From a virus: a DNA stretch of 20,435 bases. The position numbers were made by a program, and so were the translations under genes. The notes under the pieces are model-generated. The model had not been told where the DNA came from, made no database searches, and saw only the letters and a program-made list of their open reading frames with translations. Positions 5,241 to 9,779 of this stretch are shown piece after piece (position 1 is the first letter of the stretch; each line of letters starts with the position of its first letter). The stretch lies in IMG/VR virus record IMGVR_UViG_3300000239_000023, positions 1 to 20,435 of that record, one strand, 5' to 3'.

Positions 5241-5477
5241 CTTAGAGACATAAACAGGTGTATGCTCACCCCAATATGCACCGAGTACATTAAACTCAAA
5301 CCATTCAATAGCCATTGTGTGAGCTTCCTCTTCTGAGGTTTCTTTGTCTTGAAACTCTTTAACCCAGTGAGAAATCATAGCGTCTAGGTCATAAACGAGT
5401 TTGGGAGTTCCTTCTGCCACTCCGAGAATCATCGTGTCGAATGTTGATCGTGGTTCAAGATATATAAGTTCTTCCAT
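5208..5477 (-). CDS. Acidic protein of unknown function (89 aa)
   Basis: Not recognised. Start ATG with AAAGGA about ten bases upstream. The product is acidic and aromatic: MEELIYLEPRSTFDTM, then a helix with DAMISHWVKEFQDKETSEEE, then AIEWFEFNVLGAYWGEHTPVY. It converges with and overlaps the 3' end of 4941-5240. Its upstream region is shared with the promoter for the first Arg tRNA in the other direction, so the intergenic segment 5478-5574 is divergent. Confidence 0.6.
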   Translation of the reverse strand: MEELIYLEPRSTFDTMILGVAEGTPKLVYDLDAMISHWVKEFQDKETSEEEAHTMAIEWFEFNVLGAYWGEHTPVYVSKSALDHIEDCL

Positions 5478-5482
5478 TTTTG

Positions 5483-5512
5483 TTGTTCCTTTGAGGGTCT
5501 TTTTTGTATAAT
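5483..5512 (+). promoter_or_regulatory. Sigma-70-like promoter for the tRNA-Arg(CCT) region
   Basis: TTGTTC (5483-5488) and TATAAT (5507-5512) are separated by 18 bases and point toward the tRNA starting at 5575. The perfect -10 box and good spacing suggest transcription by host RNA polymerase. Distance from the -10 box to the tRNA is about 60 bases. Confidence 0.6.
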
Positions 5513-5574
5513 ACCTTTGTGAGTGTTGTTGAACGCTTCAAAGATCTTTGAAATCTCGATATGAACTTAACTTT

Positions 5575-5646
5575 ACATTAGTAGCTCAGTGGAAGAGCAA
5601 CACTTTCCTAAAGTGTAGGTCGTAGGTTCGATCCCTACCTAGTGTA
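5575..5646 (+). tRNA. tRNA-Arg, anticodon CCT
   Basis: Complete cloverleaf: acceptor ACATTAG with CTAGTGT, D arm GCTC/GAGC, anticodon stem ACACT/AGTGT with loop TTCCTAA (anticodon CCT at 5607-5609), T arm GTAGG-TTCGATC-CCTAC, and A as discriminator. CCA is not encoded. It reads AGG codons. One G-U pair in the acceptor. It follows the promoter at 5483-5512 and is followed three bases later by a long GC-rich hairpin. Confidence 0.95.
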
Positions 5647-5648
5647 TT

Positions 5649-5708
5649 ACCCCCCTCTACTTTCTTTTATTTTGCCTTGGATGAAAGAAAGAATGGGTAG
5701 AGGGGGGT
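5649..5708 (+). terminator. Strong GC-rich hairpin after tRNA-Arg(CCT)
   Basis: ACCCCCCTCTAC (5649-5660) pairs perfectly with GTAGAGGGGGGT (5697-5708), and the inner TTTCTTT and AAAGAAA can extend it. It lies directly behind the tRNA 3' end. It may terminate, or mark the 3' boundary for tRNA processing; no T-tract follows, so readthrough to the next gene is possible. Confidence 0.5.
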
Positions 5709-5848
5709 CTAACACAAGGACGGTAAACTCACAAAAGCCCTTGATCGTGAGGAACTGAGAAAGAACAAGGTAGGTCAAACTCTTAGACCTAAGAAGCTAA
5801 GGAACTTCTCCACCACACTTAAGAGTACAACATTGAAATAGGAGTATA
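5709..5848. other. Gap between hairpin and the 25-residue peptide gene
   Basis: An open frame runs through this gap (reading KDGKLTKALDREELRKN and ending at a TAG before 5848), but it contains no ATG, GTG or TTG start and is closed upstream by TAA. It may be a remnant of a coding sequence. Nothing else is clear here. Confidence 0.3.
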
Positions 5849-5851
5849 GTC

Positions 5852-5929
5852 ATGGGAAACCCTAACTATCCATCTTCGACTGGTCGCCCTAGTGGCGGTG
5901 GTCGAGGTAACGCACCAAAGTCTAAATAG
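5852..5929 (+). CDS. 25-residue Gly/Pro/Ser-rich peptide
   Basis: A complete micro-gene reading MGNPNYPSSTGRPSGGGRGN then APKSK and TAG, with GGAG ten bases before the ATG. The composition (Gly, Pro, Ser, Asn, basic end) predicts a disordered peptide. Clean ribosome site, uniform coding-like composition and its place between the two Arg tRNAs support a real gene. The function is unknown; binding to RNA or to a host protein is possible. Confidence 0.55.
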   Translation: MGNPNYPSSTGRPSGGGRGNAPKSK

Positions 5930-5959
5930 TTTAGATTTTGAGGAGATTCGTTGTATAAT
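5930..5959 (+). promoter_or_regulatory. Sigma-70-like promoter for the tRNA-Arg(TCT) region
   Basis: TTTAGA (5930-5935) and TATAAT (5954-5959) are spaced by 18 bases. The -10 context TTGTATAATA matches that of the promoter at 5507. It points to the tRNA at 6033 and the structured region beyond. Confidence 0.55.
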
Positions 5960-6032
5960 AACTCGCCCTTCACCTTTCTCATAGGTGTCTCCACTTTGTT
6001 GTTCCGTAAAGTAGGGCAAAACGGAGCTTTTA

Positions 6033-6104
6033 GCACCAATAGCTCAGTGGAAGAGCATCGGCCTTCTAAGCCGCAGGTCGTAGGTTCAAATCCTACTTGG
6101 TGTG
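6033..6104 (+). tRNA. tRNA-Arg, anticodon TCT
   Basis: Complete cloverleaf: acceptor GCACCAA with TTGGTGT (first pair G-U), D arm GCTC/GAGC with the same loop as tRNA-Arg(CCT), anticodon loop CTTCTAA with TCT at 6065-6067, T arm GTAGG-TTCAAAT-CCTAC. The anticodon stem has a T-C mismatch at its outermost pair, as does the tRNA-Lys at 8822. No encoded CCA. Reads AGA codons. The next tRNA-like element begins two bases downstream. Confidence 0.93.
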
Positions 6105-6106
6105 CT

Positions 6107-6198
6107 CGCTTAATTGGTATTCTCCTCTAGTGATTCTCTTTATAGGGGTTTTGTCTCTTCGAGGTGGGATTCTGGTTCGATTCCAGATTGAGCGACCA
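6107..6198 (+). tRNA. Non-canonical tRNA-like element with encoded CCA
   Basis: The ends are tRNA-like: acceptor CGCTTAA (6107-6113) pairs with TTGAGCG (6188-6194), followed by A and an encoded CCA at 6196-6198, and the T arm TCTGG-TTCGATT-CCAGA is canonical. No D arm can be drawn. Instead 6119-6127 pairs with 6161-6170 as nine pairs with one bulge (6165), enclosing 33 bases. Within these a four-pair stem could present the loop GTTTTGT (Lys-type TTT), but this is weak. The identity is therefore left open. It is the only element of the cluster with genome-encoded CCA. It could be an unusual tRNA, a decayed tRNA or a tRNA mimic that sets the 5' border of the structured region. Confidence 0.5.
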
Positions 6199-6429
6199 TT
6201 TTCTGTTCTTTTATAGGAACTCTTCAAACAGACGCATAGGGAGAATGGAGAAACAGATAAGCGTTTGCTTTGGTCTTGTCTGGGGGTTGTTTACGCCTCT
6301 TATTGCCACCGTTAAAGAGGATAATAGCTCTTGGGGAACTATGAGTTCGCAACATAACCTAACCAAGAGGGGTGCAACCCATAAATGTACAATGGTGGAG
6401 TAGGGCATTACGCTGATGCGGACAAGGCA

Positions 6430-6570
6430 TTGAGGAAGTCTGCTCATTCCTCTCGTTCACCTATTCTTTATCTTGTTATAAAGAATAGGTGAGCCTATAA
6501 CCTCTTGGTTGGGGAGATAACTAGACCCTGTATTGTGTTCTTCGTGGTTGATGGACACAGTATGGTTATC
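6430..6570. pseudogene. Broken partial copy of the gene at 2276-2599
   Basis: 6430-6445 is identical over 16 bases to 2340-2355, and 6534-6570 aligns with 2399-2437 with small gaps (TGTGTTC, GTGGTTGA, AGTATG and GTTATC shared). On the minus strand the first block still reads ADFLNALSASA like ADFLKAIALAQ of the intact protein, but then hits a stop, and the interval between blocks is about 45 bases longer than in the intact gene. Most of the excess equals the long hairpin at 6455-6494. This looks like a decayed duplicate interrupted by a palindrome. If the plus strand is transcribed it could also pair with the intact gene's mRNA. Confidence 0.45.
6455..6494. repeat. Long near-perfect palindrome (17-bp stem)
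   Basis: TCACCTATTCTTTAT (6457-6471) pairs perfectly with ATAAAGAATAGGTGA (6478-6492) around a six-base loop, extended by one G-U and one G-C pair. No T-run follows. It lies where the copied gene segment is longer than the original, so it may be an inserted element or part of the structured RNA. Confidence 0.65.
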
Positions 6571-6596
6571 GCTAGATTTCTAGTAAGGGTCGCTTA

Positions 6597-6670
6597 TGTA
6601 CCATGTAGCTTAACGAATAAAGCCTTGTCATAGTAGGCAAGAGAACTAGGTGTGAGTCCTAGCGGGTACA
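6597..6670 (+). tRNA. Degenerate tRNA-like element, possible CAT anticodon
   Basis: Spans 74 bases. TGTACC (6597-6602) pairs with GGGTACA (6664-6670) in six pairs, and the T arm CTAGG-TGTGAGT-CCTAG is well formed, although its loop lacks the usual TTC. A D-like stem GCTT/AAGC (6608-6611, 6620-6623) has no GG in its loop. Two mutually exclusive anticodon stems are possible: GCCT/AGGC, presenting GTCATAG (CAT at 6629-6631 with U33 and A37), or CTTGT/GCAAG with an eight-base loop. It could be a tRNA pseudogene, a minimal tRNA, or a domain of the surrounding RNA. Confidence 0.35.
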
Positions 6671-7053
6671 CTTTGTATTGGCGAAGATCATTTGTCTGCT
6701 GTAAAAGTTTGGCTGGCATTAGTCTTACAGAAGTTCCTCTTTTACTACTCGGTCGAAATCTGCAAACTAGAGGGGCGTAAATGACGAATGTTCTTCGTAG
6801 CGGGGATAATCAAATTTTGATACTTCCTAACACCCTCTTGAAAGAGAGGGCGTTAAAATTACTAGGTATAACGCCAGTGTTGTGGCTCTACGCTGATCGC
6901 AGTATGCACTTGGAGGGTCTAAGCCTACCCTACCCTAAGACTCATTCAACCCTTACTCGTTTAAGGGGGGCGAGCTTACCATAGCAGACCGAAAATTGCC
7001 CTGTGGTTTTCGTGGGGCATAACTTACTATAGGGATAGGAAATCTAGCCCTTT

Positions 7054-7129
7054 GGACAGGTACTCCTAAGACATCAGACTGTAAATCTGACCTCTTAGGA
7101 GTACGCAGGTTCAAATCCTGCCCTGTCCA
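7054..7129 (+). tRNA. tRNA-Tyr-like element (GTA) with D arm replaced by a long helix
   Basis: Acceptor GGACAGG (7054-7060) pairs with CCTGTCC (7122-7128), with A as discriminator. The anticodon arm TCAGA-CTGTAAA-TCTGA carries GTA at 7081-7083 with U33 and A37, and the T arm GCAGG-TTCAAAT-CCTGC is canonical. No D arm exists. Instead TACTCCTAAG (7061-7070) is perfectly complementary to CTTAGGAGTA (7094-7103), the position of the variable region, giving ten extra pairs stacked under the anticodon arm. CCA is not encoded. It may be a divergent functional tRNA-Tyr or a mimic. It ends one base before the stop codon of the converging minus-strand gene. Confidence 0.6.
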
Positions 7130-7414
7130 TTATAAATGACGCCAGTTTAATGTAAACCTTGTCCTACCGTCCACAGCGTGAACCATGATTTTTTTATTTC
7201 TTGAAATCGCTCTTCTTACATCATTCGGATGTGGAGCATGGACTTTAGTGCCTAAATCTCTTGTATTATAATCAGAAAGAATTTCTATTTTATTATACCT
7301 TTCGAGTCCTTCCATAACATTATCAAGATAGTTAATCCTTTGTCCTGCTGACTTCTCAAGACGAGCAACCCTCATCTCAAGCTCATTAATGATTTCTGAA
7401 GCTGATCTTCTCAT
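7130..7414 (-). CDS. Protein with ASEII-x-ELE N-terminal helix (94 aa)
   Basis: Not recognised by function. The frame is open further upstream, but the ATG at 7414 is chosen because GGAG lies eight bases before it and because the sequence from here matches the N-terminus of the protein at 13813-14307. Shared part: MRRSASEIINELEMRVARLE here, MKRLASEIISELETRIARLE there. The remainder (residues 30-94) is unrelated: polar helix, then DVRRAISRNKKIMVHAVDG and a short strand FTLNWRHL. The shared segment is an amphipathic, probably coiled-coil helix containing an I-x-E triad. The ribosome site lies in a small hairpin (7415-7429), and a class A promoter-like motif is 48 bases upstream. Confidence 0.7.
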   Translation of the reverse strand: MRRSASEIINELEMRVARLEKSAGQRINYLDNVMEGLERYNKIEILSDYNTRDLGTKVHAPHPNDVRRAISRNKKIMVHAVDGRTRFTLNWRHL

Positions 7415-8066: not shown

Positions 8067-8435
8067 ATGGCATACGACTTAACATATAACCACTTTGAGT
8101 GGGTTCGGAGCTTTGAGCGTGAGATCAAGTCTCACCTTGAGAACCCGAACCTCCCCTACCTTGCTCGTCAGTTTGCGATGATGGGTTGTGGGAGAAACTA
8201 TCTTGATGGAACGATGGTTTGGCCCCATGAGAGTCTTGATCAGCAGTTCAACGAGATGGCTCATCACCTCCTCCAAGAGTACAATCTCTTGGACACGCTG
8301 AGAGGCTTCTTCGAGTTCGACTGTATTCTCGATGAGGACAACCCTAGCAAGCTACTTAGTAAGGGTGCAGACAAGGATATCGTAGCGTTCCTTGTCGGTG
8401 AACCTGATCCTCGATACTTCACCCTCCCAGACTAA
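8067..8435 (+). CDS. Protein of unknown function (122 aa)
   Basis: Not recognised. Upstream in-frame ATG at 7914 is rejected because it lies inside the previous gene; the ATG at 8067 has GAAAGGAGAAACAAG directly before it. The protein starts MAYDLTYNHFEWVRSFEREI, is helical throughout (ARQFAMMGCGRNYLDG, DQQFNEMAHHLLQEYN, LLDTLRGFFEFD), and ends with an acidic Pro-containing tail. Two Cys residues. It precedes the tRNA-Glu gene; the intervening 62 bases hold only a weak GAGCT/AGCTC hairpin that could end transcription. Confidence 0.7.
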   Translation: MAYDLTYNHFEWVRSFEREIKSHLENPNLPYLARQFAMMGCGRNYLDGTMVWPHESLDQQFNEMAHHLLQEYNLLDTLRGFFEFDCILDEDNPSKLLSKGADKDIVAFLVGEPDPRYFTLPD

Positions 8436-8924: not shown

Positions 8925-9746
8925 ATGGAAAAAGAACTTAAAATGCTCTGCAAGGTAAGAAATACTTTATTACCCAATAAAAATGACTCGTTCATTCAGA
9001 CGATGATCTCCAATTTGGATTCTAAGATCCTGTCTATACAGAAAGAGACAGGTCTTGTGGAGGACACCTCAGATACCTATAAGATGAGACAGAAGACCAC
9101 CGAATATGATCAATCTGATCGAGATTGTGTCAACTTGCAAATTGACTCCTACGACTTTGTAAGGGGGAAGATTCGTAAGAAGTTTCCTGAAACTCTGAGG
9201 CCGATGACGGAAGCCCTCGTGAAGACCTGTAGGAGTTGCGACAAATACTTAGCCACAGTAGACCCTTCAGAGAGTGACTATTGGTATGACTGTCACTGTG
9301 TTGCGGGGGAAAACCCCTACGACAATCTTGAGAATTGTAGAGCACATTGGATGAGAGAGAATCGAGAAGACGGTTTTGACGCTAGTTATTGGTGGAGGAG
9401 AGAACCAACATTAGATCGTAAAATCTCTCGTCTTAAAAAGGAGTTGGCAAAATGCTGGGAAAACACACATTGGATCGACACTGGCGGCTCGAAAGTCACC
9501 ATCCAAGATGTTTTATGGCGACTAAAAGATGAGCCTATCATTAGTGTTGAAATTAGCACTATTTGCCGTAGTAACAAGGTCTTGATTGAAACCAATAGAA
9601 AAGACCAAGCAGACACTACAAAGTTTATCTTGCTCCATAAATCTCTTGTCTTGCTTGATGGATACCATAGAGTAGCGAAGGCACTAGAGATGGGGGCGAC
9701 CCACATACCAGCCAAAATATTAAAAACTGACATATTTAGTGGGTAA
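8925..9746 (+). CDS. ParB/sulfiredoxin-like protein with a Cys cluster (273 aa)
   Basis: Start ATG with GAGGA seven bases upstream, 30 bases after tRNA-Lys. The C-terminal 70 residues resemble the ParB/Srx nucleotide-binding fold: a strand EPIISVEIS, then KFILLHKSLVLLDGYHRVAK with the DG-x-HR signature at 245-249, then MGATHIPAKIL. In such proteins this motif binds nucleotide phosphates (CTPase or kinase-like activity). The middle has C-x-x-C (102, 105) and C-x-C (123, 125), a probable zinc site, surrounded by Trp/Arg-rich helices. The N-terminal 60 residues are helical. This combination of domains is unfamiliar to me. An orphan tRNA 3' half begins right after the stop codon, suggesting the gene arrived by recombination at a tRNA gene. 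Confidence 0.7.
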   Translation: MEKELKMLCKVRNTLLPNKNDSFIQTMISNLDSKILSIQKETGLVEDTSDTYKMRQKTTEYDQSDRDCVNLQIDSYDFVRGKIRKKFPETLRPMTEALVKTCRSCDKYLATVDPSESDYWYDCHCVAGENPYDNLENCRAHWMRENREDGFDASYWWRREPTLDRKISRLKKELAKCWENTHWIDTGGSKVTIQDVLWRLKDEPIISVEISTICRSNKVLIETNRKDQADTTKFILLHKSLVLLDGYHRVAKALEMGATHIPAKILKTDIFSG

Positions 9747-9747
9747 G

Positions 9748-9779
9748 GTCGGTCGAGGGTTCAAGTCCCTCCGAGTCCA
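9748..9779 (+). pseudogene. Orphan 3' half of a tRNA
   Basis: A perfect T arm GAGGG-TTCAAGT-CCCTC (9755-9771) is followed by CGAGTCC and discriminator A (9772-9779), exactly as in a tRNA 3' end. The matching 5' acceptor strand GGACTCG is not found in the expected place; the preceding bases are the end of the ParB-like gene. So only the 3' half survives. It could be a recombination scar or an attachment-type sequence matching the 3' end of a host tRNA. Confidence 0.65.

Follow-up and report, generated by a model that had tools for sequence, protein, structure and literature searches.

An anticodon-less, CCA-ending tRNA-like structure linked to a large structured RNA in a clade of huge phages

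What is an element with the two ends of a tRNA, and with no parts for decoding between them, in a phage genome? The question is raised by the stretch of DNA analysed here (the window), a 20,435-base IMG/VR virus record (IMGVR_UViG_3300000239_000023) which carries a tail sheath gene and an ATP-dependent DNA ligase gene. A sequence-only reading of the window had described a tRNA-like element at 6107-6198 with an encoded CCA and a helix in place of the D arm. It had joined this element in one family with a second one at 7054-7129, the two bracketing a structured region. The first element is called the tRNA-like structure (TLS) below, and its parts and neighbours are collected in Table 1.

Table 1. 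Features of the TLS locus in the window (positions from the first base of the window)
Feature	Position	Strand	Remarks
Sigma-70-like promoter match	5930-5959	+	upstream of tRNA-Arg(UCU); weak, 10/12; not conserved in the alignment of relatives
tRNA-Arg(UCU)	6033-6104	+	2 nt upstream of the TLS
TLS, anticodon-less tRNA-like structure	6107-6198	+	acceptor stem, D-loop-like UUGG, long rod, T arm, encoded CCA
TLS acceptor, 5' strand CGCTTAA	6107-6113	+	pairs with 6188-6194, 7 bp
UUGG, D-loop-like single strand without D stem	6114-6117	+	invariant in 5/5 copies
Rod base P2, 5' strand	6119-6127	+	pairs with 6161-6170, one bulge
Upper rod P3/P4 and terminal hairpin CUCU/AGGG (6135-6139 with 6144-6148)	6129-6158	+	
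Rod base P2, 3' strand	6161-6170	+	
T arm UCUGG-UUCGAUU-CCAGA	6171-6187	+	direct sequence reading
TLS acceptor, 3' strand TTGAGCG	6188-6194	+	pairs with 6107-6113
A73 (A6195) and encoded CCA (6196-6198)	6195-6198	+	kept in 5/5 copies
Large structured noncoding RNA, ~0.85 kb	6199-7053	+	conserved block starts 4 nt past the CCA in all five copies; fold z -4.1 (window)
Further tRNA-like domain, of divergent type, within the large RNA	6597-6671	+	cloverleaf; D loop without GG, T loop UGUGAGU
tRNA-Tyr(GUA) in which a copy of the variable arm stands in for the D arm	7054-7129	+	downstream boundary of the large RNA

Direct reading of the element bore out the 7-bp acceptor, the canonical T arm, the CCA and the lack of a D stem. 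The nine-pair helix with one bulge that had been proposed in place of the D arm was right in coordinates and pair count, and it is the minimum-energy fold of the window copy when acceptor and T arm are imposed (-24.7 kcal/mol). Its outer pairs are A6119-U6170, U6120-A6169, U6121-G6168, C6122-G6167 and U6123-G6166, followed past the bulged U6165 by C6124-G6164, C6125-G6163, U6126-A6162 and C6127-G6161. With the tRNA ends imposed, the upper rod of the window copy adds the pairs 6129-6130/6157-6158 and 6132-6134/6153-6155. Both strands of the window were scanned for a perfect 5-bp T stem with a tRNA-type loop together with a 7-bp acceptor. Six such elements (five tRNAs and the TLS, one of the six with two acceptor options) were found on the plus strand and none on the minus strand; the same scan returned no element in each of 20 shuffled windows. 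Only the TLS among the six is followed by a CCA, in agreement with the sequence-only reading.

Folded without constraints, the window copy reaches a z of -0.98 and its T arm is not formed. With the ends imposed, its interior energy is matched by 33% of shuffles, and at least nine outer spanning pairs are obtained in 4.8%. The constrained-fold z is -0.8 for L007, -2.2 for L011, -3.6 for L009 and -4.4 for L013. Taken alone, the window and L007 copies are thus no better than shuffles, and the significance of the fold rests on the relatives and on covariation. The TLS was found on eight IMG/VR contigs, which hold five distinct sequences with the window copy counted: the window (identical to L005 and L006), L007 (identical to L008), L009 (identical to L010), L011 and L013. 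As the L009 and L013 copies differ at two bases, these represent about four lineages, which limits all of the statistics that follow. Overall length varies from 91 to 102 nt, and the CCA and T arm are the best-conserved parts.

The rod that replaces the D arm is kept by compensatory change in all five distinct copies, and the pairing of 6119-6127 with 6161-6170 is conserved in the relatives. From a plain MAFFT alignment, RNAalifold recovered the acceptor, T arm and rod unprompted, and six of the 28 pairs had changed in both bases. When the alignment was fitted to the TLS structure, 96.9% of cells across the five copies formed standard pairs and five pairs were doubly changed; on this same model-fitted alignment, one shuffle in 500 attained the covariation score. 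With the partner shifted by one to three columns, pairing falls to 33-56%. All seven acceptor pairs are formed in every cell of the five copies, two of them having changed on both sides, and compensatory changes are likewise present in the T stem and the rod. In the plain alignment the P2 strands of the window and L007 are set one column out of place; after alignment by hand, 29 of the 30 cells of the six shared P2 pairs hold standard pairs, the exception being one C-A mismatch in L011. The outermost shared pair reads C-G in the window, U-G in L007, A-U in L009, G-C in L011 and A-U in L013. The rod arms pair well within a copy (-10.9 in the window, -10.9 in L007 and -17.8 in L011), whereas combinations across clades give -5.3 (window with L011) and -4.7 (L007 with L011). 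Some cross-clade combinations also pair well (L009 5' arm with window 3' arm, -16.7), and in the L009 copy a competing two-hairpin fold beats the rod by 2.2 kcal/mol.

Could the TLS be a decayed tRNA pseudogene with no function? The weak fold of the window copy on its own is consistent with decay, and this clade does remodel tRNAs, as the D arm of its tRNA-Tyr illustrates below. The compensatory changes in acceptor, T stem and rod argue against it, as do the CCA, retained in each of the five copies next to tRNAs that have none, and the presence of the TLS in all eight contigs that carry the large RNA. A pseudogene is therefore considered very improbable.

The linkage to the large RNA is strict. 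The gapped TLS pattern matched eight contigs of the 2.9 million in IMG/VR, and four separate patterns drawn from the large RNA each matched those same eight contigs (8/8). In all five copies the order is tRNA-Arg, 2 nt, TLS, 4 nt, large RNA, with spacers that differ in their letters. The hosts of this module appear to be related huge phages. The closest named tail sheath belongs to a 485-kb uncultured phage (39.7% identity), and records with relatives of the ligase reach 375,691 bases. In this 375-kb record the nine tRNA-model matches (E up to 0.01) all fall within 173,376-180,000, which marks a tRNA island. With model R1, strong matches were obtained in six of 11 ligase-relative records and in none of eight further ones, where the best match had an E of 0.009 on a 6.2-kb fragment with no ARAGORN tRNA call. 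With model R2 the strong matches fell in the same six of the 11 records, and again in none of the eight. By R1 and R2, records with 61-70% identical ligases are without the TLS/large-RNA module. In LR745208, R1 gave 27.7 bits at a place overlapping a tRNA that ARAGORN calls without assigning a type and reads with a four-base anticodon; this match was treated as an ordinary tRNA. Against named phages, a 948-nt query of TLS plus large RNA found 4 matching records among 50,697 (E up to 10), none with an E better than 1, and for an L011 query only the tRNA part was matched, among the matches listed. The TLS pattern was absent from the bacterial and archaeal genomes searched. From these searches the module appears confined to one phage clade, no homologue having been found outside it. 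The matches listed by word-based literature searches, which are not proof of absence from print, included no description of the TLS.

With tRNAs of the canonical (RF00005), class II and selenocysteine types the TLS shares the 7-bp acceptor, the T arm, the discriminator A, the CCA and the UUGG of the D loop; it differs in having neither D stem nor anticodon arm, and in scores below the model cut-offs. Several observations could nevertheless be taken for a real but unusual decoding tRNA, such as a class II tRNA or a stop-codon suppressor. Near the tip of the rod, 7-nt loops with U33 can be drawn in all five copies on stems of 4-5 pairs, reading CUCUAAU (anticodon CUA) in L009, L011 and L013 and CUUUAUA (UUA) in the window and L007. 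ARAGORN run with introns names the L011 copy tRNA-Pyl(CTA), and weak Rfam scores are obtained with the tRNA model for L009 (20.9 bits) and with the tRNA-Sec model for the window (17.9 bits). However, these scores lie under the cut-offs of 29 and 47 bits, respectively, and the window copy drew no RF00005 match. Between the clades the two loops are shifted by one base relative to each other, and their stems are mostly G-U or mismatched while the competing rod pairs covary. In the consensus fold there is no D stem, UUGG being followed by the rod in 5/5 copies, and no anticodon arm with a 7-nt loop at a conserved place, as the candidates have weak stems out of register and the consensus prefers the rod. 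ARAGORN identities are discordant, with Lys(CTT) and a 6-nt intron in L007 and L008, Pyl in L011 and nothing in the window, L009 or L013; no class II or intron-containing tRNA fold fits the copies consistently. The stop codons of 35 chosen ORFs of the window comprise 21 TAA, 8 TGA and 6 TAG; with all three in use as terminators, no recoding is evident. The identification as a decoding, suppressor or class II tRNA was rejected on the scores, the unregistered loops and the discordant identities, and such a tRNA is judged improbable.

A similar plan is known from the tRNA-like domain of tmRNA, which consists of an acceptor, a D loop without a D stem, a long P2 helix before the T arm, the T arm and an encoded CCA. 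The TLS has the same plan, with no D stem and a P2-like helix ahead of the T arm. In contrast to tmRNA, no mRNA/tag part or pseudoknots were seen, and position 3:70 is C-G rather than the alanine G-U. The tmRNA model RF00023 (cut-off 47 bits) had no match at the TLS in 6/6 records and weak sub-cut-off matches elsewhere, and ARAGORN called no tmRNA in the window; a tmRNA identity was rejected on these grounds. The bacterial Y RNA YrlA is a noncoding RNA with a tRNA-mimic module. It resembles the present case as a noncoding RNA bearing a tRNA-like part, and it differs in that no Rfam match was found here. A Y RNA/Ro identity was also rejected, since no TROVE/Ro protein (PF05731) was present in any of five related records, which may be incomplete.

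At the downstream boundary, the bracketing arrangement held in one respect. The region between the two elements is a covarying RNA of ~0.85 kb, but 6107 and 7054 do not belong to one family, because the relatives carry a normal tRNA-Tyr at the second place. Ordinary class II tRNA-Tyr(GTA) genes were found at 10015-10098 in L009, 10506-10590 in L011 and 8588-8672 in L013. The odd plan that the two elements had been said to share is of different kinds: the TLS has a rod and no anticodon arm in every copy, whereas the D arm of tRNA-Tyr is replaced in the window and L007 only, where the anticodon arm is retained. In these two the arm, shorter by seven bases, has the sequence TACTCCTAAGA, which is exactly the reverse complement of the variable arm, TCTTAGGAGTA, of the tRNA-Tyr. 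The D arm may have been replaced through a template switch in a quasi-palindrome, which would leave the anticodon arm on a long helix.

Consensus folds of the large RNA have doubly changed pairs in both its 5' part (5 of 70) and its 3' part (18 of 134). The window and L007 are 98% identical over the large RNA with the tRNA-Tyr at its end, and 91% over a longer stretch including the flanks. In L009, L011 and L013 the RNA consists of two conserved blocks separated by a small ORF and a tRNA-Asn, with a tRNA-Gly in addition in the linker of L009 and L013. The window has a short spacer at the linker position, without ORF or tRNAs. The linker ORF, with hydrophobic stretches, lies at about 8945-9214 in L009 and about 9573-9848 in L011, and is also present in L013 and absent from the window. 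Counterparts of the internal cloverleaf exceed the Rfam tRNA cut-off of 29 bits in L009 (35.2), L013 (34.0) and L011 (30.1), while the window copy has no row. A model of the 3' domain of the large RNA matched its own 5' part (21.8 bits, E 6e-4; window 6399-6564 and 6879-7054), which suggests that the RNA is internally duplicated.

In size, structure and place the large RNA recalls GOLLD and ROOL, being hundreds of nt long, structured and located within phage tRNA islands. GOLLD is made up of a 5' and a 3' region with a variable linker between them that is able to hold tRNAs (PMC12286853), and a 5' block, a variable linker with tRNAs and a 3' block are what is seen in L009, L011 and L013. The Rfam models gave no match. 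The GOLLD model RF02032 was silent in 11 of 11 records at E up to 10, with a sensitivity that is unproven given only sub-cut-off matches in 14 controls, and the ROOL model RF03087 was silent in six of six records and in its controls. No other Rfam family fits, and the large RNA was left without an Rfam identity. The available portions of the GOLLD and ROOL descriptions contain no mention of a 5' TLS. GOLLD forms a homo-oligomeric cage. The RNA described here resembles the ornate phage RNAs in its layout and, on the model search, is not assigned to GOLLD.

Upstream of the tRNA-Arg(UCU) gene, a 25-codon ORF, MGNPNYPSSTGRPSGGGRGNAPKSK (window 5852-5929), with a purine-rich upstream site, is conserved at 25 codons in all five sequences. 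A long imperfect hairpin (window 5638-5719; 23-nt arms, 83% complementary) directly follows tRNA-Arg(CCU), without a T run. Sigma-70-like sites number five in the region against 2.7 expected, and no terminator-like site was found in 5400-7300. Farther downstream, an apparent tRNA 3' half, with a T arm GAGGG-UUCAAGU-CCCUC and a 3' acceptor strand, lies at 9733-9779, directly past the stop of the ORF at 8925-9746, and may be an attachment-site or insertion scar.

The islands of the relatives hold further tRNA-like pieces. A 54-nt mini element with acceptor, D arm with GG and T arm, and no anticodon arm, is located upstream of tRNA-Arg(UCU) at 8304-8357 in L009, 8968-9021 in L011 and 6876-6929 in L013. 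It shows compensatory acceptor changes and is absent in the window and L007, its pattern matching four of the eight TLS contigs; in the predicted minimum-energy fold its acceptor and D arm are formed and its T arm is not. L011 also has a 68-nt tRNA-like RNA (8199-8266) with a 5-bp anticodon stem and a 4-nt loop, just upstream of tRNA-Arg(CCU). Pieces of this kind without a usable anticodon are a wider theme of the relatives' island, with the cloverleaf of the large RNA as a third. Such company would suit a tRNA decoy or sponge, in which a CCA end and T arm without an anticodon loop to cut would titrate a tRNA-targeting host defence or tRNA-handling enzymes, and it is the CCA and T arm of the TLS that are conserved best. 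A free decoy would require neither the fixed 2- and 4-nt spacers nor the strict linkage to the large RNA, and this reading is regarded as unlikely.

The reading preferred here, with a probability of roughly 0.55, is that the TLS is an anticodon-free module for processing and 5' capping (punctuation) that heads the large RNA. It retains the acceptor/T-arm half of a tRNA together with UUGG, which could dock on the T loop in the manner of G18/G19 of a tRNA, and a single long rod stands in place of the D, anticodon and variable arms. tRNA-Arg(UCU), TLS, large RNA and tRNA-Tyr would be made as one transcript. RNase P favours a 3' RCCA; it would recognise the acceptor/T-arm stack and ACCA and cut at 6107, thereby freeing tRNA-Arg with its 2-nt trailer and making the 5' end of the TLS, and a further RNase P cut at tRNA-Tyr would set the 3' end of the large RNA. 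RNase Z would trim the phage tRNAs that lack CCA and would be blocked by the encoded CCA at the TLS, so that the TLS is proposed to remain on the ~0.85-kb RNA and form its compact 5' domain, with a possible role in protection or docking.

One source bears on the RNase Z step in both directions. CCA slows the B. subtilis enzyme 1520-fold in Mg2+ (PMC7479834), and the enzyme of the phage host may differ from it. RNase Z is not always blocked by CCA, as that of T. maritima cuts after it and that of E. coli can process CCA-bearing precursors under some conditions (PMC7479834). The usual route for CCA-encoding bacterial tRNAs is RNase E plus exonucleases (PMC7479834). Action of RNase E at this place would set the TLS free as a small RNA of its own, which counts against its retention. 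The TLS may then serve punctuation only, being excised as a small stable RNA by RNase P and RNase E or exonucleases, its job limited to setting the 5' end of the large RNA. This shares all the support of the capping model and has the normal release of CCA-encoding bacterial tRNAs in its favour (PMC7479834). Under it, the TLS and its unique CCA would probably be redundant, because the tRNA-Arg directly upstream could already set the 5' end of the large RNA; we consider it unlikely.

Extending the preferred reading of a retained 5' module, it is tentatively suggested that the locus belongs to a new class of large phage RNA. Such an RNA would have an anticodon-free, CCA-ending tRNA mimic as its permanent 5' domain and a second, degenerate tRNA-like domain inside, be excised by RNase P from a tRNA operon and be exempt from RNase Z through its CCA. 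A possible task of the mimic would be to hold the RNA at tRNA-binding machinery, for example the CCA-adding enzyme, a synthetase, EF-Tu or the ribosome.

A group of huge phages thus carries a tRNA-shaped piece which has tRNA ends, a rod in place of the decoding parts and a constant position directly 5' of a large RNA. The large RNA is previously undescribed and adds a large phage RNA family with covariation support. The giant phage RNAs GOLLD and ROOL adjoin tRNAs for reasons that, to our knowledge, are not known. A non-decoding TLS that is locked to a large RNA at fixed spacing and bears the sole local CCA offers a testable reason for the tRNA neighbourhood. If the proposal is true, the large RNA would be excised, capped and perhaps delivered by tRNA processing enzymes, and the CCA would serve as a signal to stay attached rather than for aminoacylation.
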